DNA of 53,653 nt from an uncultured Eggerthellaceae bacterium (GTDB lineage Bacteria; Actinomycetota; Coriobacteriia; Coriobacteriales; Eggerthellaceae): NCBI GenBank assembly GCA_904420215.1, contig CAJFUR010000124.1, positions 1 to 53,653 of the forward strand, read 5' to 3'. The notes beneath the pieces were generated by a model, which saw only the letters and a program-made list of their open reading frames with translations, made no database searches and was not told the origin of the DNA. The translations under genes and the position numbers were made by a program. This document shows, in pieces, positions 17,080-36,088 of this stretch; the stretch's first letter is position 1; the number at the start of each line of letters is the position of its first letter.

Positions 17080-17358
17080 GGCTTCCTCTTTCCCGCAGGC
17101 CTGCGCCCGCGATTTTGCGTTTGTTCCGAATCGTTGCCGTCCTGTCGGTAATACCCCCCTGTTGCCGGAAACCATCGGGGGGAAATCGGCCATATCGCCG
17201 CCGGGTAGCCATCGGGAGGAAGGGAGGGGCGCCCCCCCCCCGGCCCCTCTCCGTCGCCAGTCTGATCGTTCAGCACCCTCGCGCCGCTACCACGCCGGCA
17301 CAAGGGTGCTGCCTAACTCAAATGGGTAATCATCTACGCACACGGCCACCACCTCCCT
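17080..17358. other. Gap with a ten-base poly-C tract between element genes
   Basis: A run of ten C (17232-17241) lies between the DnaC-like gene and the 199-residue gene. A frame from about 17276 (GTG) to 17076 overlaps the next ATG as ATGA and crosses the tract in frame, but has no good ribosome site and a Pro/Gly/Arg-rich product, so I do not call it a gene. A short frame after GGGAGG at about 17340 ends after some twenty codons. Confidence 0.4.
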
Positions 17359-18799: not shown

Positions 18800-19003
18800 C
18801 TACTCAATACCGGCGAAAACTAGAACCTTGTCACGGTTGAAGCGCCATTGAAGCCCGACCCGCACGGCGGGCAATCCGCCCTCCTTGGCAAGTCTGACGG
18901 CTTGGCGCTCGCTGATTGAAAGCAACTCCGCAACCTCCTTGCCGTTCAGAAGCAGCGGCAAACCCTCGGCCTGCTCCCTAGTCGTGATTCTCTGCGCTTC
19001 CAT
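18800..19003 (-). CDS. Excisionase-like small HTH DNA-binding protein
   Basis: 67 residues forming a MerR/excisionase-type winged helix: LLLNGKEVAELLSISERQAVRLAKEGGLPAVRVGLQWRFNRDKVL. Such proteins bend DNA at att sites to direct integrase toward excision, or act as regulators. AAGGGGCGG lies upstream of ATG 19003. Starts the replication gene set 18315-17359. A strong hairpin separates it from the HTH regulator further upstream. Confidence 0.8.
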   Translation of the reverse strand: MEAQRITTREQAEGLPLLLNGKEVAELLSISERQAVRLAKEGGLPAVRVGLQWRFNRDKVLVFAGIE

Positions 19004-19136
19004 AGCCGCCCCTTTCTCGTCGTTGTGTCGGCGTTGGCATTGTTGACGGGTTGAGTATCGCACAGCTGAAAATGACACTTTTTTGCAAGTAGAGCGGCAC
19101 GTTAGGCAAGTGGTGGGCTTTTCGAAAAGGGGTATA

Positions 19137-19177
19137 CCGAATGCACCCTTCCCGTTGTGCGGGAAGGGTGCATTCGG
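19137..19177. terminator. Perfect 18-bp hairpin in the element
   Basis: CCGAATGCACCCTTCCCG pairs with its exact complement over a five-base loop (TTGTG). It lies 38 bases after the stop of the HTH regulator and 130 bases before the excisionase-like gene. There is no immediate T run (CCCCTTTTCG comes about ten bases later on the minus strand), so it may be a terminator or a processing/protein-binding site. Confidence 0.6.
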
Positions 19178-19214
19178 TGGATGCGTTTGCGGTTGTATGT
19201 GGTCTGTGGAGTTT

Positions 19215-19778
19215 TCAGCCCCGAATCTTGGATACCGCCACGCGGGCTTCCTCCAAGTCCCGCGCCGTCTCAACGCCTGCCAGCGCCCGCAGCGCGTCAA
19301 TCTCGGGCGCAAGCTCGCCATCGGGCGCAATCGCCGATAGCTCAACCTTCACCCGGCACAGCTCGGCAATGACGGCGTTGAGGATGCGCCCCTGAACCTC
19401 TAGATTCCCGTAGACGGGGCCAGCCTTGAACACCTCGGCAAGGCAAGCGACGGCCACGGGAGCAAGGTCGGCGCTCAAATGCTCCCTCGGCTCCATCATG
19501 TCGAAATAGAACCCCGCCCAGTATGCCATCGGGTCGCTATCGCCCAGCCGCTCGGCCTTGGCCGCGCTGAGCGCCCTTGCTATGGCATTGGCTTCCTTGG
19601 CACGTATGGGGCGGGGGTTGCCCTGCCACCGCCTGACCGTCTCGGGCTTCCTGCCAGTCTCGGCGGATATACGCTCTATCAAAGGCCCCGTTTCGGCCTT
19701 GTGGCCGTCCCTGCGCCCCGCCTTGGCCTCGGCCTGTAGAACCTCCCGGAATCGGGGGAATAGGGGCTTGTCGGGCAT
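19215..19778 (-). CDS. Helix-turn-helix protein, probable element regulator
   Basis: 187 residues. The N-terminal region (residues about 30-70) contains a putative HTH (PLIERISAETGRKPETVRRWQGNPRPIRAKEANAIARAL), followed by a helical domain of about 110 residues without a known signature. Position beside integrase and the excisionase-like gene fits a lysogeny-type regulator. GGAGG lies six bases before ATG 19778, and the ribosome site overlaps the end of the upstream frameshifted gene (TGA at 19782-19780). Confidence 0.7.
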   Translation of the reverse strand: MPDKPLFPRFREVLQAEAKAGRRDGHKAETGPLIERISAETGRKPETVRRWQGNPRPIRAKEANAIARALSAAKAERLGDSDPMAYWAGFYFDMMEPREHLSADLAPVAVACLAEVFKAGPVYGNLEVQGRILNAVIAELCRVKVELSAIAPDGELAPEIDALRALAGVETARDLEEARVAVSKIRG

Positions 19779-19779
19779 T

Positions 19780-20024
19780 TCACACCTCCATGCATTCCAG
19801 AGCCGCCACGCCGTCGGCGTTGGCCTTGTAGAGCAATCCTTCTGCGATCTCGCCCACAGTAGCCGCCACGTCCTGCGAGCAGCCGCGCTCCCCGTCGTTG
19901 GCGGCGTTCACGTAGCCCAGCGCCGCCATGTAAAGCTCCGTGAGGCCTTGCGACTGGACCAGAAACCTCGAAGCGGCCTCCTTATGTCCCCGCGCCCCAT
20001 AAGCTCCAAGTCGTTAAGGCTCAT
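19780..20024 (-). pseudogene. Small element gene, apparently frameshifted near its start
   Basis: From ATG 20024 the frame reads MSLNDLELMGRGD and then stops soon; shifting frame at the GGGGACATAAGG stretch (about 19985) gives a continuous product (KEAASRFLVQSQGLTELY, then MAALGYVNAANDG and so on) that ends with TGA at 19780, overlapping the ribosome site of the next gene. The joined protein would be about 82 residues, helical, of unknown function. Either a real one- or two-base indel or a sequence error explains it; a start at an internal ATG would give only the C-terminal half. Confidence 0.55.
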
Positions 20025-20068
20025 TTCCTGTCATTTCTCTCGTTGAGCGGCGTAGCGCCGCAGGTTGC

Positions 20069-21322
20069 CTAATACGCCGTGCCCGTGGGGGCAAGTTCCA
20101 TGATTCGCGCCGCAGGCTCGCCGCCCGCCATGGCCCTTGCCACGACCTCGGCCCCGCGCCTCTTTGCGTCAGGGTCTGCGTCGGCGTAGATGTTGAGCGT
20201 CATAGCGGCGTTTGCGTGTCCCAGCGAACTAGAGACGGTCTTAACGTCCACGTGCGCCGCTATCGCCGCCGTGGCGTAGGTGTGCCGCAAGTCGTGGAAG
20301 GTGGGACGCTTGCCCTGAGTGCCCATAAGTCCCAGCAAATCCGCCATGACGCGCCACCGCTCCCAAAGGACGTGGGGATTATAGAAACGGTAATCGCCTG
20401 TGGCCTCATCCGTGTCTATGCGCCCCAAAACGAACATGTCAGGCGAGAAGGGCACGCCCGCTTCTAGGCACTGCGTGGAAACCTCGGCACGCCTCGCCCT
20501 CAGCGCCTCGGCCAAAGGTTCGGGGTAGCAGATGGTGCGACGGCTCCCCCCGGTCTTAGGCTCCTTGACGTAATAGCGCCCGTTGTCCTTGCCTATGGCC
20601 TCACGAACGTCCAGCGTCATTGCCTTTAAATCGACATTGCGCCATCGCAGGGCGCATATCTCGCCCTCTCGCATCCCGGTGTAAAGGGCCATCTGCATAG
20701 CCACAACGTCGGGAGTCTGGGATGCCGCAGCGAGCGCAGCCGCAAGCCGCTTCCTCTGGGCCTCAGGTATCGCGTTAGGCTCGGGCTGCTTGCGCTTGGG
20801 GGCTTTAACGCCGTCCGTGGGGTTGCGCTGTAGCCGCCCGTCGTTCACGGCCTGACGCATCGCGGAACGAACCAAGACAAAGGCTTTGGACGTGCTAGCT
20901 GCCGAGTACTTGGCCGCGACCTCGGCGAGCCATGCTCGGAAATCCTCGGGGCCTACCTCTGAAAGCCCCGCCCCCGCAATGGCGAACGGCTCAACCTGCC
21001 GCCGCAGGATGTAGCGGTACCCGTTGACGGTGGACGGCTCGGCGGTCACGGCCACGCCGTCAACGTAGGCCATAAGGTACTCTAGGACGGTCTGAACGGC
21101 TTTCTGCGGGGAGTTCTCGGCGCGGTCGGCTTCTGCCCTCAGCTCGTCCCACCATGCGGCCATCGCCCTCTCAGCCGCCCGCTTGCTCTTTACGCCCTCG
21201 AAAGTCTTCGACTTGGTGCGCCATGCTCCGTCATCGTCCTTGTACTTGACTTGCGCACGCCACGCCTTTTTGCCGCCCTTCTTGGCGTACTCCCTTAGCA
21301 TGGGTTGCTTTCCGTACAGCAT
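20069..21322 (-). CDS. Tyrosine recombinase (integrase) of the element
   Basis: 417 residues. An N-terminal arm-binding-type domain (WRAQVKYKDDDGAWRTKSKTF) is followed by a SAM-like core-binding domain (about 60-170) and the catalytic domain with Arg in YTGMREGEICALRW, the HxxR box in FHDLRHTYAT, GHA at the second His and the nucleophile Tyr in TLNIYADAD. It catalyses integration and excision between the 45-bp att sites. ATG 21322 has AAGGGG upstream; the frame extends further 5' through the arm sites but without a site. It lies next to attR, pointing into the element. Confidence 0.95.
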   Translation of the reverse strand: MLYGKQPMLREYAKKGGKKAWRAQVKYKDDDGAWRTKSKTFEGVKSKRAAERAMAAWWDELRAEADRAENSPQKAVQTVLEYLMAYVDGVAVTAEPSTVNGYRYILRRQVEPFAIAGAGLSEVGPEDFRAWLAEVAAKYSAASTSKAFVLVRSAMRQAVNDGRLQRNPTDGVKAPKRKQPEPNAIPEAQRKRLAAALAAASQTPDVVAMQMALYTGMREGEICALRWRNVDLKAMTLDVREAIGKDNGRYYVKEPKTGGSRRTICYPEPLAEALRARRAEVSTQCLEAGVPFSPDMFVLGRIDTDEATGDYRFYNPHVLWERWRVMADLLGLMGTQGKRPTFHDLRHTYATAAIAAHVDVKTVSSSLGHANAAMTLNIYADADPDAKRRGAEVVARAMAGGEPAARIMELAPTGTAY

Positions 21323-24258: not shown

Positions 24259-27200
24259 CTACGCCCCGCGCGGACGCTCCCAGCGCCTGCGGAGGCGGCG
24301 CATCGCGCCGGCGCCCGCAGCCGCCGAAAGCGCAGCCGCAACGCCCAGCAGCACGAAGACGGGCCCCTGGCCGTCGCCCGTCTTCGACAGCAGCGTCGCC
24401 GGGGGGATCCTCTCATTGGTTACCTGCAACACCAGTCCGTCGTCCACGATGGCGTAGCCCGCGCCCGCCTCCCCGGCAAGCGTCCCGTCTGGCCTGACCG
24501 TGAAGGTGTAGTCTTTCTCTATGAGCCGGTAGCCGTCGGGAGCCTTCTGCTCCGTGACCGTGTACGACTCTCCCGCAACCAGAGAGGCCAGCGTGGCCGT
24601 GCCGTCCTGCGCGCTCTCAAGCGCCTTTTCGGCCGCGCCGTCGGCGAACGTGCCCACCACCTTGAACTCGGCGCCGGAAAGCGCCTTGCCGTCCTCGGAC
24701 ACCTTGCGCAGCTCAACCTCGATGGCCGCATCCCTCACCGTAACCACCGCGGTTCCGTCCGCCTGATCGACGGACACGGCACCGCGCACGCCCTCCGGCG
24801 TCGCTTCGTCCACCGCCACCGTGCCGTCGTCGTGGACGCGCAACACCACATCGCCTAGAAGCTCGTAGCCGGCAGGAGCCTGCGTTTCCCGAATCAGGTA
24901 GCGCTCCCCCTCCGCGCTTCCCAGAAGCACGTAGTCTTGGAACAGCACGCCCGCATCGTCGGACGAGAACGTTTTTTCCACGTCCCCGTCGGGGAACCGG
25001 CCCTGCACGGCGAACTCGGCGCCCGCAAGCGCATTGCCTGCGGCGTCGCGCTTTATCAGCGAAACCCGAATCAGGTCGTCCTTCACGGAAACTACCGCCG
25101 TGCCGTCGGCGTCCTCCGAGGCCGTGTACAGCCCGCTGCCCTCCTTGCCCGCCACGCTGCCGCCCGCATCGGCTCCGACGAAGGACAGCGTGCCGTCGGC
25201 GTTGACCACAAACGTGGCCGACCCCGCCAGTTCGTGCCCTGCCGGGGCGAACACTTCGGAAATGGTATAGGATGCGCCTGCCACCAGCCAAGCGGCGTCG
25301 ATCTCCACCGCGCCGTCGGAGCCGCTCGTGAACGTTCTGGCTTCGGAGCCGTCGTGGGGAACGATCTCGAACACCGCGCCCGCCAAAGGCTCGCCGTCGC
25401 GGTTGGTCTTCATGATTCTTGCCTTGATGGGCGTGTCGGCCGCCGTCAGCGCAATGGCGCCTCCGTCTGCAATCTGGTATCCCGGCTGGCCGTCGGCCGC
25501 CTCCACGCTGTCGGCCGCCACCGTTATGGTGCCGTCTGCCGCCACCGCGAAGCCAAAGGAACCCGCCACTATTTCATGGCCGTCCGCCGCGCGCGCCTCG
25601 ACGACGGTGTACGTCTCGCCCGCCACCAGCAACGCCTCCAAGTTGACGAGGCCGCCACCGTCCGTGGTCAGGCGCTGCTCGGTGCTGCCGTCGGCGAACG
25701 CGCCCTTCACCACGAATTCGGCGCCCGCAAGCGGCGTTGCGTAATCGTCGGTGCTCACCTTCTGCAGCCCCACGACCACCGGCGTGTCCACGGCCCGCAC
25801 GGTGAACGTGTTGGCGTCGCTTTTCTCGTAGCCGTTCGGCACCACGCCCGTTGCCTCGAGGGCGCCGTCTTCGGCAACCCTGACGGAAAGCGTTCCGGCG
25901 ATGAGCTCGTAGCCTGCGGGCGCCGCCGTCTCCGCGATGGCGTACGTGGCGCCCACGCACAGCTGACCCTCCAGCGAGGCCGTGCCGTCCTCCCCCGTCG
26001 TCAGCCCCCTCGCCCCCGTCGTGCCGTCGGCGAACGCGCCCGCGCCCACAGGCGTCACCGTGAACCGCGCTCCGGGAAGCGGGGTTCCGTCCTCGGCCAC
26101 CTTTTCCACAGCAAGCCGCGTCGGGCTGTCGGCGGCAACCACCGTCACGCCGTCGGTGTCCACGCGGTATCCAACCATGTCCCCGACGGGAACCAGCGTG
26201 CCGTCGGCCCGCACGTCGAACGCAAACGTGCCAGCAATGCGCGTGTACCCGGCCGGCACGCCCGTCTCGGTCACCTGGTAGCGGTTGCCCGCAACCAGAC
26301 CTTCTATCAGAACCGCGCCGTCGGCGCCGGTTTCCACGCTCTTGCTCGCGGCGCCGTCGGCGAAGGCGCCCACCACGTCGAAGGCCACGCCGGACAGCGC
26401 CTTCGTCTCGTCGTTGGCGTCCACCTTCTTGACGAATGCCCGTATGGGCTCGTCGGCAAGGGAGACGGTGGCCGCATTGCCGTTCAGGGACCACGGGGCG
26501 GAAATGCCGTCGGCTGCCGTCAGAGAACCGTCTGCCTGCACCGTCACATGCAGCGTTCCGCCTGCCAACTCGTAGCCTGCGGGCGCCGCCGCCTCCGCGA
26601 TGGCATACGTGGCGCCCACGCACAGCTGGCCCTCCAGCGAGGCCGTGCCGTCCGCCCCCGTCGTCAGTTCCCTCGCGCCCGTCGCGCCGTCGGCGAACGC
26701 GCCCGCGCCCACCGGCGTCACCGTGAACCGCGCTCCGGGAAGGGTCTCCGTCCCGTCTTCGTTGGTTTTGCGCAGCACCAGGCGCGTGGGCTGGTTCTCC
26801 ACATCCTGCAGCACGGCCTCCGCCTCCACGGTGTCACGCGCGACAACGAACGCGGCGCTCGCTGCCGGCTCGTCGCCAACCTGCCCCGCGAAGCCGCCGG
26901 CCGGCGTCGTTTCCACAAAGCGGTACGTGCCCCACGGCAGGCCGGAAACGCGCAGCACGCCCGCCGCCGGCGCGGCGGAGGCGTCTTCTGCGGCGCTTCC
27001 TGCGGCGGCGTCGAACGCATACGCCTTCCCCGTGGCAAGGCCCGTCGCAACGTCCTCCCACGTGGCGTCGACGCGTTGCCGCTGCAGGGCGAACACCGCG
27101 CCGTCAAGCGCCGCGCCGTCGGCGGCGCTCTCCTTCCTGAACGACGCGCTGCCGGTCAGCCGCGTGTTCGCCAATCCCCCGTCCTGATCCACGTCGGCGC

Positions 27201-30200
27201 CTTCCACCACCGCCTCGATGGCGGCACGGTCGCCCGCATCGGCCAGGTCGAACTCCCCGTTGTGGTCTTCGTTTCCCAAGGAGAACGTTGCCTTGAAGCC
27301 CGCGTTCGCCACGTAGCCCTCGTTCGCCGTTTCCACCAGCTCGTAGCTCCCTTTGCCAGACAGCTCCAGAACCAGCATGCCTTCCGCATTCGTGCGCGGC
27401 GCCGCGACTGTGGGCGCGCCGCCGCCGGCCGGCGTGTACGTCAGGCGAAACTCCGTTTCCGAAATGCCCTCGCCCGATTCGGCATCGTACTTGAACAGCG
27501 TCACCGTCGCCTTGAAGGGGTCGTTCAGCAGCACGGAAGCCGGTTGGGAGCCCGGCTCTGCGGCGGCGTTGTCCCGCACCGTCACCGCATGCGCCTCGCC
27601 GTGGTTCGCCACGGCGTCGAGCGTGAAGGCGAACTTCGCCGCGTCGCCGTCGGGCAGATGGGCTGCGTCGGAAGTGCCCACTTCCAACAGGTAGTATGCA
27701 CCCGCCTGCAGGCCGTCCGACAGGACCGCTCGGCGCCCGTCGGTCTGACCCACCAGCGCTATGTCGCTGTCAGCCGAGGCGAACGACCCGTCGGCGCCAC
27801 TCGTCAGGCCCTGCGCCATCAGCTCGTCGCCGCCGCCTGCGGCGGTGCCCACGCGGTACAGGTCGAACGTCGCGCCCTGCACCGGGGAGGCCGCATCGTC
27901 CGCCAAAGCCTTCGCGAACTCGAAGTACCCGCGGAACACCGGATCGACGGCCGTCACGCACGCCACGCCGTCGTCCTGCGACACCGCCCCATCCACGCCC
28001 GAGGACACCGTGCCGTCGGCAGCCAAGGCGAATGGAACGTCGTCGGCCCGCACGTGGTCTTGCGGCACCGCGCCCGTCTCCCGCACCAGATAGTCGCCCG
28101 CCGCGAGCCCGACCACATACGTGGCCGCCCCGCCAGTCATGGGCGTCAGCTTCGCGGTGTCGGCCTGCCCGTTGCCCGTGCCGTTGGGCCACACCTCGCC
28201 CGTGGCCACGCCGGACGGGCTCGCCCACGTGGCCACCCGGCCCTGTGCGTCGCGCTGCCACACGGCGTAGGTGGTCCGCCCGTCGCGCGACATAACGGCC
28301 AACTCTATGCCGTCAAGCCGCTCACCCTGCACGCCCGCGGCGTCGGGGTCGGCATCCCAGTCGTTCACCTTGTCCAGCGTGAAGCGCGTGGCGGTGTTCG
28401 CAATGCCGTCGCCCGTCTGGTTGCCGTCGGCGCCCACCTGCGTGGAGCCGCCTGCGTAAACGGGGTAGAAACCGGGAATGCTGCCGGCGGTTTCGGAGGC
28501 GCGGTAGGTGTACGCGTTGCCGTCGCCGTCGGTTCTGGGCAGCCCGGAGTACGCCCACGTCCACATGCCGGCCGTCCCCTCGCTCCACGCCGGCTGCGGC
28601 ATCGTGCCGTCGGCAGTCCTCGCCTCCTCCCACTGCGCGTTCTGGTCGGCGGGGTCGTCCGTCGTGCGGTGCAGCACCATGGAGGGCGCCCTGTCAACAA
28701 CGCCGTCGCCGTTCTGGTCGAAGGCGGGCGCGAAGCCGGTTCCGTAATCCTCCCATGCCTTCGTGCCGCTCAGGCCTATGGTGTAGAGCGAGTTGACGTA
28801 AACCTGGTGGGCGCCGCCTGCCGCCACGGCCTGGCCGCTGTCGCCCGCCACCAAGGCGTCGCCCTCGTCAAGCGGCGTTTCCGCAAGGGGGTTCTCGACG
28901 TCGTAGCCCCCGGGAACCGCCTCCACTGCGCGGTAGCGGTACGCGTTGCCGTCCGCATCCTGCGCGGGAAGGTTCGCGAAGGTGGCCGCGTTGGAGCCGA
29001 ACGTCGCGTCCTGCGCGTCCATGCTGCCGGTGATGCTGGCCGTGACCACCCGGCCTTCCGCATCGGTCACCCAGTCCCACGTCGCCCCATTGTCCGACGA
29101 GCGCTGCAGCTTGTACGTCACCGACCAGCGCTCGTTGCGGTACTGGTCGTAAACGACGTCGCGCAGGCCCCATTCGTTGCCGTTGTCGTCCCATGCCTTC
29201 CGCACCGTCAGCTCCGTGTCGTCGAGAACATTCGTGATCAGCGTGCTGCTCGATGCGGCCAGCGAAGCGCTGCCCTCGTTGGCGTTCCACGTCGTGTGCT
29301 GCTGCCCGTTGTACGAGGCTGCCGTGTCGTACACAATGGACGCGCCCGTGTCGTTCGCCGGAGCGAACGTCGCCTCGTCGGCTCCCACCTTGGTTTCCAC
29401 CACGCGGTACTCCACTTCGTAGACGGCGCCAGCGGCGTCCTTGACGCGCACGGGCACGCTGTTCCACGTGTGGCTCCACGCGTTGTCTGCGGCAAGCGTC
29501 TGTTCCACGTTTGGAAAGCCGCTCGGCACTCCACCCACCAACCGGGCGAACACGTCGGCGGCAGACGCCCATGCGGAATAGCCGCCCTCCGCGGCGTTCA
29601 GCGCCTTGTAGCGCGCCTGGAGCTGGACTTCGACGCTCGTCGGGCGCAAGCCCCATGCGTCGTCGCCGTCTTCCCACGCCTTCCTCGCGACAACGGATCC
29701 TTTGAGGCGGTTGTTCAGGTTGCCGAACGCGCCTTCGTAGGAGCCTTCCGCTTCCGTGGCCTTGCCGCTGCCCGTTGCCGTGCCCACCTGCGTGCGGTAG
29801 TGCATGGTGCCGTCGGTCAGCGTCTCTGCAATGGTGTAGGTCCAGGCGCTGCCGTCGGGCGCCCACTGCTCCAAATTGGATATCGTGTACGTCCACGAGG
29901 CGACGTCCGCGCCCTTTTGCGTCCATTCCAAATAATTGTCTGCATCCGGATCGTTCGATTGCAGCGAAACGGGCTCTTCCTGGCCGCTGGCCGACGTGCG
30001 CGAGAGCGTCAGCTGGATGTCGCTGGGGCGCACGCCGAAGGCGTTGTTGTAGTCGGTCCACGTCTTGGCACCCGTCAGCTCCAGCGTGTCCGCCTCGTAG
30101 GCGTTCGCGAACGTGACGTCAACGGCCGTGTCGTACACGGGCGTGCCGTCGGCACCGGGCGTTGCCGCAACCACCATCGACGTGCCGTCGTCCTTCATGG

Positions 30201-33200
30201 CAGCCGGCGAGGCCACGCCCTCGTCGCCAACCGCGCCGGCGCCCAGCCCGGCCGCGCCCAGCGTCAGATCTCCCAGGCCCACCTGCGTGGCATAGCCGTC
30301 CATAGACGCCTCCACCACCCAGTAACGCCAGTACGTGCCGTTGGGGGCGTATACCTCCAGCTCCTCGAAGGTGTACGTCGCGTTGCTCCTCTCGGCTTCG
30401 GCCCGCCCGAATTCCTCGGCCGAAATGGTGCCCACCGCCACCCGCTCGGGGCTGCTCGGGCCGGCCTCGCCCTCGTACTGGCGATACAGAACGAATTCCA
30501 CGTCGGGGTACGCGTCGCCCGCATCCCGCCCGTCGAACAGCTTCTTCACCGTCAGCGAGCCTTTGGTTGCGTCGTAGGCGTTGTTGAGGTAGAACGAGCC
30601 GGTCTGCCCGTGGCGGATGCTGTACACCTGGCCCGCGGCGTCCAGGCCGGCGTCCTGCGCGAAGTTCACGCTTCCCACGTCGCTTGATTGCAGGTATCCC
30701 GGCGTGTCCAGCAGGCCCACCATCACCTCGCGCGCGCGGTACTGGTACAGGTTGCCGTGTTCGTCGAACGCCGGCAGCGTCTCGCCGGAGGGGCCATTGG
30801 AGTTGTCGCCCGGAGAGGCGATGGAATACGTGTAGCGGTTGCCGTCGCCCGGCGCCTGTTCCATGCGGGACGTCCACGCCACGGCCCCAACGCTGCCGTC
30901 CGCGTTCTCGGCCGGCACCCACGCGCCCGACGCGTCCCGTTCCACGTACAGGTCGGGCCATTCGTCGTCCGTCGCCAGCTTCCGCTGCAGGAACACCACG
31001 ATTTCGGGGATGTCGGCAGACTGCACGGAGCCCGGCAGGTTCGACCACAGCTTCGTGCCGTTGGCCACAAGGGTGCCCGTCAGCGAGTTGACAAACGTAC
31101 CGCCCGAACGCACGGCATAGGCCGTGCCGGCGCTGTCGTCGATGTTGGCGGCGTTGCCGCTTGCGACTTCGATGAGCTGCGGATCGGCTGGGTCGTGCGA
31201 GCCGGTCATCCGGCTGGCGGAAAACGTCACGTCGCCATAGCCCAGACTGGCACCGTCGTTCATGAACTCCTCAACGGCGTAGTAGGTGATCTCGTCGCCG
31301 TACCTGTCGTACTTCGGCAGGCCGTCGATCGTGCAAGACTGCAGGTACTGCGAGGCATCCAGCGGCGTGGGATTCGAAAGGCCGAAGGCGGATCCCCCTT
31401 CCCCGTCCGTGGCCGCACGCCACAGGTAATGGATGTAGCCGTCCACCGCCACCGGCTTCTCGTTCGTGGCCTTGCTCACCTGATACAGCGTGAGAGCGAT
31501 GTCGGGGCGCTGCAGCGCCTCGTTCACGTAAACGTCGTTCCACTCCTTGTAGAACGTCACTTCCGTCGTGGCCGTGCGCCGGTTGGCAACATGGTAGGTC
31601 TGCGTGTCGTGGAAGTGGATGGGGCCGATGACATAGTCGCCAGTGGTCGAGGATATCACGTAGTCGCCCTGTTCCTGCTGGTTGGCAAAGCGCTCTTCCA
31701 CCGTGTAGTGCACCACTTCGCCGTCGGAGGCTATGCCCTTGTACTTGGGCAGGCCGAAGAAGCCGTAGGTGGAGGTGTCGGAATCGGGGCTTACCGGCAC
31801 CACCAGCGCCATGCCGCCGTCTTCCACACGCGCGGAATCGAGCGGGGCGCCGTCCTGGTCGTACAGGGGTATCTTGTTGCCGCCCGCAAGCTGCGCATAG
31901 GCGTTCCCACCCTCCACGAAGAAGCGGGCCTCCGGGTCGTCCACCCTCAGCACCAGCTCCGCCGCAGGGCGCTCGTCGGGGGCCGCCGACCCGTCGATCC
32001 ATTCCTTTTCCACCGTGAGGTCTATCAGGCCGATGCGGCGGTTGTTCACCGTCAGGGTCTGCTCCCCGAAGGGGCCCGCGGCTTCGGCGGCGTACGTCAC
32101 TTCATATGCGTGCTCATGCGTGGCCACGCGTTCCAAGTCGTTGGTCCAGCCGGCGTTCACCCAGTCCTCGTGGCCCAGCCCCGCCGCCACGGCCTCGTCG
32201 CGCGTGAACACCTCGAAGCTTTCGCTTCCGTCGAGGGCGTCGAGGCGCGTTTCCTCGATGACGATGTCGTCCGTAGTCAGGCCGTCCACGGGAACCACCA
32301 GTTCGTAGAACCATGCGTTGGCTTCGGACAACGCTATGTCCGCCCTGATGACTTCGCCGGCGCGGTAGCGGAGGCTGCCGTCGCGCGCCGTCAGGTCGCG
32401 GGCCGCGCGCACGGTGACGTAGCAGATCAGCCGGTGCGCCGAGTCGTCGCCGTCCGTCCACTCCTTCAGCAGGTGGAAGTCGGTGCCCTCGCCCGGGCCA
32501 TAGGAGTTCGTGATCGTGGTCAGGTGGTTTTCGGCGTCGTAGACGCGGTCGCTGTCCCATCCTGCCGGCTCGCTTTCCACCACGCGGTAAACGTACTTGG
32601 CCCCCGTGGCGGAATACTGCGGCAGACCCGTGATCTCTAGGTAGTACGGGCTCGTTTCCTGCGCGGCGGCAGGCCCCGACCCCCCATTGCCCTGAATGCG
32701 GTCGTCGAACGGCGTCGCTTCGGCATCGGCCTTGCCGTCGAGCACGAATTCCCCCACAAGCGTGGTGTTCTGGTACACGCGCACGGTCACCGTGTCGGTG
32801 CGGGCTTGGTCGGGCTGCTGGCGCGCGTAGGTGCCGTCGGGTTGTTCCCACAGCTTCTCCACGTTCTCGTGCGTCGCATTGTCGAACGAGTTGACAATGG
32901 TGCCGTCCTCGCCCATGAAAGACGTGAAGCGCACCGGCTCGGCCGCGTCGGCCGAACTCTCCCGCGCATGCAAGTACAGCGTGAACTCGGCCGCGTTTGC
33001 CTCCTCGTCGCGTTCGAACTGTGTCTCGTCGGCCCCGCGGCCTTCCTGCACCACGTCCGTCTCCACCCAGCGGTAGGCTATCTCGTATCCGTCGTCGTCG
33101 TATTTAGGATACGTTCCCGCTATCTCCTGCGTGAGCGTTTCGGCATTGAATCCCTCTATGGCCTGCGTGACGGGTGCTCCCTCGGCGTCAAGAGCGGGCG

Positions 33201-35975
33201 TCCACGCGCCGGTTTCCCGGTCGCGGCGCTGGAGCGTGAAGACGCACCGCACGTTTTGCAACTGATCCTGAAACGCGGCCACCGACCAGGTTTTCATCTG
33301 CCTGACCTGCTTCGTTCCCGAAAGGTGGTTTTCCACCGTGCCGCCGTTGTAGGTCAGGTGGTCGTTCGCGGGGCGCGTCCACGCGTCGGCCGTCGAGTTC
33401 GGGTCGCGGTTCTGGTCGGTGTAGCCTATCGTGGCGTCGGCCGCAACGTTGTAGTAGTTGGGAGCCGTGCCGTCGAACTCCACCGTGTAGTTCGCCACTG
33501 CAGTGTCCTCGCGCACGCCGTAGACGAAGGGATAGCCGTCGGAGTCGTATTTGTCCAAGGCGAGGCCGGGATACTGCTCCTTCAGCAGCGCCCCCAAGTC
33601 AACGCGACCGTTCTCGTCGGCGTCTTCGGGAGTGGCAACCAGCGTGATGAAGCTGCCGTCGGCGGCCCGCACCTGCGAGGCGTGATCGACGGAGCCGGGG
33701 GTGGAACCATCGGAGTAGCGCCACAGCGAGAACGACACTTCGGTGCGCAAGGCGGCGTTCTTTCCGTCGAACCACTGCTTGTAAGCCGCGAACTCCGTGG
33801 TGCCCGTGTGCGTGAACACAACGGTGCCGCCCGTGTAGGCGGCATCCACCACTGCGCCATGGTTGACCGATGCGGAATTGTCGTACGCGGCGGCGTAGTA
33901 GTCGTCGTCCGCCACGAAGTCGCGGTACACGATGCGGTACTCGATGGGCTCCCCCGCCACGGTGTAGCGGGGCAGGCTGGCCGAAAGCGTTCCCGAACAC
34001 GAGCCTTCGTCGGGAAGCCAGCCGAACGCCCCGCCGATGCTTGCCTGGGCCTGCCCGTTGCCGCCGCCAACCATGAGGTCGTCGAGGGCATAGGTGGCCT
34101 TGACCTCGTTGTTCACCACAACGTCGATGTACAGGTAGCCGCTCGTGCTGCCGCCCAGCTCCTCCAGCGTGTCGTCGCCCACCTTGCCCACGATGCGAAA
34201 CGACTCCTCGGAGAGCAGCTGCAGATACTGCGTGTCCGGCGCGCCTTCGCCGTAAGACGCGGCGTTGCGCAGGTAGCCGTAGCCGGCATAGTCTGCCATG
34301 TCGGTCATCGACCACTCGATGCGGTAGGAGGCGTCCGTGGAAACGTACACGGGGTTGCCCGTGTCGGGGTCGTAGATCAGCCCGTTGTCGTCCTCGTCCT
34401 GCGCCCACGTGGTCTGCACCACCGTGGCGGGCAAGGCGTCTGCCGTGGAAACGTACGTGTTGACCGCAGTCTGGCGCGTTCCCGCCGAAGGGGCGGCGTC
34501 CATACCCAGGTACTTCTTCACGTTCTCGGGCGTTGCCGGAAGGTCCTTCGCCTCCGTGCCGCCATCGGAAATGATGAGGCCGTCCTCGTCCACGTGCATC
34601 ACGTTGCCGTCGGCGTCGTAGAGCGTGAACGTCAACGTGGGCGAGACGGCGTCCGTCGATGGGCGCGAACCGATGTTGTTGTCCGCCCATTGGGTGACCA
34701 CCTGCTTGGACGTGGACGCCGTGCCGGGCTTGCGCGTGGGCGCGGGAGGCTCGCCCGCACGCGCAGGCGACACGAGCGCGCCCAGCGCCGCAACCAGCTT
34801 GTCCACCCGCGCCTTGTCGGCGGCGTCGGGCGATGCGGCAACGGCATCGGCGCCTTGGGCATCCGAAGGAAGGGCGTTGCCCGAAAGCCCCCAAAGGGCC
34901 AGCACCTCTGCACGCGAGGGCACGCCAAGCACAACCGTGCGCGCCGTGCCGTCTTCGGCCGTCTGCACGACCCAGTCGATCTGGGACGCCTCGTCCTGCA
35001 CCAGCGACGCGTCCAGAAGCACGGGAAGCGATGCCGTCCCAAGGGGCGCGGAAACGGGTGCGGAAGCATCAGAGGCCGCGCGGGCGTTCTCGCCCGATGC
35101 ACCGGCGTCGGAGGCGTCATCGGCAGCAGCGTCGGAGGCGTCGCCGGCGGCAACGCCCTCCCCGGACGCCTGCCTCTGGCGAACGAGGTCCGCGGCGGCA
35201 TCAGTCAGAGTGAATCTGACGCCCCCCCCCCGGCGACTATTTCGGCGTGCGCAACCTGCACGCCCGTGGATGCCTCGCAAACCTCGAAGGAGCCTTCCGC
35301 GCCCGCAGCGGAAACGCCCTCGGGCAACATGACTTGGAAGTAGTCGCCCGCTTGGACGCCCTGCCCTTCGGGAATCGGCCCGAAGTCGAACGACACCTCG
35401 AGATCCGCCGGTATGGCTTCGGGAAGCGCCACGCTCTGGCCGGGCGCGGCGGCTTCGCCGGAAGCAGAGATCGCGGCTTTCGACCCATCGGCAGGAGATG
35501 CGGCCTCCTGCGCTGCCGCGGCGCCCTGCAGCGCAGTGGGGCACTCCGGCGAAATTTCCAGAGATCCGTCGAAGGACAGGGCGTCCACGACGCCCGACCA
35601 GTCCCTTGGCGCGCGTTCGCCTTCCCCACCTTCCCCGTCGGCGGAAGCAGACGGGGAACCGGCCACATCCAACCTCTCAACGGGAAGTTGAGCATCAACC
35701 TCTCCCTGCAGCCCGCTGCCCAAGCCCTGCGCGCCGGAAGCCTTCCCGCCCTCGCCGTCTTGGGAGTAGGTCGGAAGCGCATTGGAGTCCTCTTCCGGCG
35801 AGGGCGCGCACGTGGGCTGCGCAGCGGGCGCCCCGCAAGGATCACCCTCGTCCGAGGAGCTTGCATACGCCGCCACCGAAACGGGCATCATGGTTGCCAC
35901 CAGCATGAACGCCATGAACACATTGAACAGTCGTTCGGACAGCGCATGCGGGGCCACTCGATGTGTTTTCTTCAT
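24259..35975 (-). CDS. Giant Cna_B-repeat sortase-anchored surface adhesin, switched out of frame by a poly-G tract
   Basis: Read with one extra G (or two fewer) in the ten-base tract at 35222-35231, this encodes about 3,905 residues. As sequenced, translation from ATG 35975 (GAGAAGG upstream) stops at 35205 after 256 residues. Order: signal peptide (ERLFNVFMAFMLVATMMPVSVAAYA), acidic disordered segment, SdrG-like head (from about residue 220, VSFDFGPIPEGQGVQAGDYF), then about twelve Cna_B domains starting with K-W strands (VEKEWIDG, VRKAWDDNG, TGAKTWTDY, GTKAWEDYG), then about eleven SpaA-type domains (KVSEDGKALSGAEF, ending in ETQAPAGYEL-like motifs with isopeptide Glu), and a sorting signal LLSKTGD, hydrophobic helix and RRLRRRWERPR tail. 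No sortase gene is adjacent. It likely mediates host or mucus attachment. Confidence 0.88.
25906..26079 (-). repeat. Near-identical internal duplication in the adhesin, copy 1
   Basis: 174 bases matching 26569-26742, offset by exactly 663 bases (221 codons), with roughly ten differences. They encode the LPGARFTVTPVGAGAFADG through YAIAE-AAPAGYEL part of two SpaA-type domains separated by one different domain. Confidence 0.85.
26569..26742 (-). repeat. Near-identical internal duplication in the adhesin, copy 2
   Basis: Partner of 25906-26079. Recombination between the two direct copies would delete or duplicate 663 bases and keep the frame, changing the number of domains by two. Confidence 0.85.
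35222..35231 (-). repeat. Ten-base poly-G tract in the adhesin gene (phase-variation switch candidate)
   Basis: Ten G on the coding strand after the codons for HAEIVA. Eight or eleven G join the signal-peptide frame to the long repeat frame (GGGVRFTLTDAAADLV); ten G leads to a stop within six codons. Confidence 0.85.
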
Positions 35976-36088
35976 AAGACCTTCTCGCTTCCTTGCCGCA
36001 CGCAACGGGCGCCTCATCCGTCCCCTTGCAAAAGACAGTCTCGCCAAAGGCAGCTTATCAATGAGCGCCTGCATCAACTATAGACATC

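Follow-up and report, generated by a model that had tools for sequence, protein, structure and literature searches.

The window, the whole 53,653-nucleotide stretch analysed here, is contig C124 of a draft Eggerthellaceae genome (G000; 2.69 Mb, 185 contigs, 84.7% complete) and carries on its minus strand a giant surface-protein gene divided between two reading frames. Translation and Pfam matches reveal a sortase-type layout consisting of a signal peptide, the start of a Big_8 domain, Cna_B and SpaA repeats, an LSKTGD sorting signal, a hydrophobic segment, and a basic tail, with the signal peptide and the sorting motif, a variant (LSKTG), identified by eye. The gene is flanked by an AraC-like regulator and an exonuclease III-like gene (names by eye). 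No sortase (PF04203) was matched on this contig, so that the dedicated sortase of a Bifidobacterium breve-type pilus cluster is missing from it, and the genome holds two PF04203 matches, on contigs C111 and C20. The window also contains excisionase-like and integrase-like genes (18800-21322; by eye), suggesting a small integrated element.

The two frames meet at a run of ten G, read directly as C10 on the plus strand (Table 1). The signal-peptide frame reaches the run at its codon 248 and stops five codons past it, giving a product of 256 residues on translation, and the body frame 3′ of the run comprises 3,653 open codons. Thus, the G10 run joins two offset frames, and its length sets the reading frame: with ten G the 248-codon and the 3,653-codon frames are out of register, while eight or eleven G would join them into a protein of 3,905 residues. 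The first-pass annotation had described this split, the arithmetic, and both product lengths in the same way, and direct reading and translation bear it out. However, it had placed the tract just behind the signal region, while the run in fact lies in the first recognisable domain. The Big_8 match spans residues 192-250 of the upstream frame (E 0.0006, slightly under the Pfam cut-off) and covers profile positions 8-66 of 103, hence the run is located inside the domain. The OFF state of the gene is as read from one draft assembly.

Table 1 Features of the giant surface-protein gene and its leader in the window
Feature	Coordinates	Strand	Basis
Leader with purine-rich Shine-Dalgarno-like stretch (gcgagaagg) 5′ of the ATG	35976..36000	-	Read directly; similar stretch before the G001 start
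Upstream frame as sequenced (ATG 35975): signal peptide, low-complexity stretch, Big_8 start; 256 residues	35205..35975	-	Translation; Big_8 match; 57% identical to the G001 frame
G10 run (C10 on the plus strand), proposed slippage switch	35222..35231	-	Read directly; G9/G10 at the frame junction in three homologs
Body frame (stop at 24259): Cna_B/SpaA repeats, LSKTGD, hydrophobic segment, basic tail	24259..35214	-	Translation; Pfam; dN/dS ~0.24 vs G001; 53% identity with the G024 homolog (3,623 aligned positions)

Long G or C runs are frequent in this genome, which holds 75 of at least eight bases, and the G10 run taken alone therefore says little. In the window, two runs of ten are seen against about 0.3 runs of at least ten expected per window by a Markov estimate. 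What sets the G10 run beyond chance is its placement at a frame junction together with its recurrence in three homologs. A simple gene caller placed 14 of the 75 runs within genes, and one further in-gene tract, lying on contig C63 within the signal region of another giant surface gene, was added by hand, making 15 in total. Across the 703 kb of sequence fetched, run lengths show a dip at 7-8 and a peak at 10, with counts at lengths of seven or less being on a different scale because these stretches were chosen for holding long runs. The second C10 of the window (17232-17241) is intergenic, as are most of the runs in the genome (around 60 of at least eight bases), many of them 3′ of genes.

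Homologs of the giant surface protein were matched in 12 of the 138 genomes of the family search. The only relative of the same genus among the genomes searched is a sister species (G001), likewise a draft less than 90% complete, in which a G9 run occupies the homologous codon and the signal-peptide frame is also out of register with the body. The two species align around the run without net length change, and the 498 residues behind it are 77% identical. Two genomes of another genus carry runs at other positions, G9 at codon 55 (G024) and G10 at codon 69 (G117), both again out of register. In G024, the body frame meets a stop 4 nt 5′ of the run, which forces the join to be at the run itself. 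Tract lengths in G000, G001, G024, and G117 are thus G10, G9, G9, and G10, with frame classes 2, 2, 2, and 1; the run is kept while its length or register differs, here between species. None of the four copies with a tract is in register, an outcome with a chance of about 0.2 if registers were random. Finding such runs at two separate positions of one gene speaks for selection on switching and against a single accident. In a further genome (G074), a C10 is instead located in the leader region, and two distant homologs (G073 and G021) contain no G/C run of at least seven, with a signal-peptide-like start that is continuous with the body. A scan of named genomes returned only G001, an Enorma homolog, and one remote match in a metagenome-assembled genome, and the stretch of the Enorma homolog examined held no G/C run of at least seven.

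The body is under purifying selection, as a crude Nei-Gojobori count between G000 and G001 gives a dN/dS of about 0.24 over 2,693 codons, and 0.45 over 245 codons of the upstream part. In G001, the body runs to the end of the contig without a stop (2,854 codons as counted), whereas its alternative frames contain 80 and 37 stops. An untranslated frame would not remain selected and free of stops in this manner, which indicates that the body is expressed in some cells.

Taken together, the gene of this giant sortase-type surface protein is probably controlled by a poly-G contingency locus (roughly 85%), in agreement with the phase variation proposed in the first-pass annotation, as four genomes from two genera have a G9 or G10 where the frames meet, in front of a selected body. 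Replication slippage would lengthen or shorten the run by a G. One register out of three would let translation pass from the signal peptide and first domain into the 3,653-residue body, and the full-length product would be exported and then anchored to the wall, while in the other two translation would end soon past the run, as after the 256 residues here, and the body would be absent. Since comparable runs occur in this gene in relatives, a random on/off switch at this run is very probable, judged by sequence comparison. Slippage presumably takes place in living cells, populations may then mix ON and OFF states of the gene, and the protein may act as an adhesin. Solved-structure searches returned no useful match. 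MutS had no match in any of 37 genomes of relatives, G000 included, and NucS had none in G000, G001, or G004. Likewise, all Coriobacteriia analysed in PMC5290159 are without MutS and NucS. In the absence of these proteins, slipped bases in long G runs should often persist.

The best surviving alternative, still an improbable one, is that the run was miscounted in sequencing or assembly and that this population in truth has the gene ON. Counting G homopolymers is difficult, annotations can carry erroneous G-tract lengths, as PMC9187656 warns, and the assembly is a draft in 185 contigs. Yet, the miscount would have to occur in four genomes and in two frame classes, and pure assembly error would not generate a run in all four of them. 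In-gene tracts elsewhere in this genome are in register, which argues against a general counting bias, and even if miscounted, such a run inside the gene would stay prone to slippage. Slightly less probable again is that no DNA switch exists and that out-of-register DNA still gives rise to the complete protein through programmed frameshifting or RNA-polymerase slippage. Both ribosomes and polymerases can slip on G runs, and three of the four adhesin homologs fall in one frame class. The constant class of these first three was considered as a sign of programmed frameshifting and rejected, as the G117 copy is in class 1. Frameshifting in a fixed direction is further disfavoured by two orthologous pairs of LuxR-type regulator genes in G000 and G001, in which the tract sits at the same place but the frame classes differ, by several other in-gene tracts that are in register, and by RNA folding, which predicted no frameshift-stimulating or unusual structure next to the G10 run. 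Finally, pseudogene decay through a disabling frameshift, for which the frame broken as sequenced and the expected ease of mutation of runs in a family without mismatch repair can be cited, is the least credible explanation, mainly because the body has been kept under purifying selection, with zero stops in both species, and also because four genomes from two genera share this type of break. The first-pass annotation had already taken the intactness of the body as an argument against decay.

The switch described here as very probable most closely resembles that of the G-tract pilin genes of Bifidobacterium breve, where switching was shown by experiment, while the present gene is known from sequence comparison. 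In both, a signal-peptide frame and a long LPXTG-type frame are split by an intragenic G tract whose length decides synthesis of the body, and a B. breve pilin gene is likewise out of register in its reference genome. Both hosts are gut bacteria, B. breve a gut actinobacterium and the present host a member of the Coriobacteriia. However, the B. breve gene comes first in a pilus cluster that includes a dedicated sortase, while the present gene stands alone, and the position of the present run, at codon 248 in the first domain, also differs. In Campylobacter, Neisseria, and Bordetella, poly-G and poly-C contingency loci, many per genome, switch genes for surface structures. The likeness lies in long G/C homopolymers whose length changes switch surface genes, but these are distant phyla and other gene families. 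In the related gut bacterium Eggerthella lenta, the surface also varies reversibly, yet capsule phase variation there works by DNA inversion on the megabase scale, with slipped-strand mispairing named only as a general alternative (PMC13174815). A literature search on phase variation or homopolymers with Eggerthella, Gordonibacter, and Coriobacteriaceae found no report of poly-G switching in Coriobacteriia in the portions of the records available. The switch design is already known from B. breve, and what is new, as far as could be found, is its occurrence in this class, the recurrence seen by comparison of homologs, and a pattern in regulator genes.

This pattern concerns LuxR-type regulators. 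Eight of the 15 in-gene tracts of the genome, of G or C, lie in genes for membrane regulators of this type (L068, L076, two in L084, L092, L102, L106, and L115), each with a PF00196 match, some tracts being in register and some not. The genome has 47 PF00196 matches, and if LuxR genes make up about 3% of coding length, which is our estimate, the chance of 8 in 16 would be about 1e-8. Seven of the eight tract-bearing regulators have a molybdopterin-oxidoreductase-like gene no more than about three genes away, one of these enzymes having been checked against family models and the others called from N-terminal motifs by eye. Transmembrane LuxR proteins of a like kind control catechol dehydroxylases in E. 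lenta (PMC9734109), and a term search of that paper met no mention of frameshifts or homopolymers. The pattern may be limited to the present genus, since a pattern search of the complete genome G004, from another genus, found no LuxR gene with an in-gene tract. It could be speculated that a lineage lacking known mismatch repair uses poly-G slippage widely, in giant surface proteins and in membrane LuxR regulators beside catechol-dehydroxylase-like molybdopterin enzymes, although we consider this wider proposal evenly poised between true and false.

With the giant surface gene, a switch design shown in Bifidobacterium gains an example from the Coriobacteriia that has comparative support in two genera. 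The prediction is that such bacteria form mixed gut populations of cells with and without the giant surface protein and that single reference genomes often show switch genes as broken. If the wider use of poly-G slippage is true, individual cells would vary randomly in the diet compounds that they can transform, and the LuxR/molybdopterin tracts would allow sequencing to test directly for such variation in polyphenol metabolism between cells.

Tracts were also seen in other genes. The second giant surface protein, with VWA and FctA domains and more than 2,500 residues, has a G11 just 5′ of the signal-peptide core and is out of register (L087 7600-7610, contig C63). In G004, two paralogous sorting-signal proteins carry a G10 in the signal-peptide region, in register (L243 2062 and 3898). 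Further G/C tracts (L082 3920 on C28, L099 6033 on C107, L121 8961 on C176, and L071 3921 on C6) lie in genes for three PucR-like regulators and one MFS-like transporter (names by eye).
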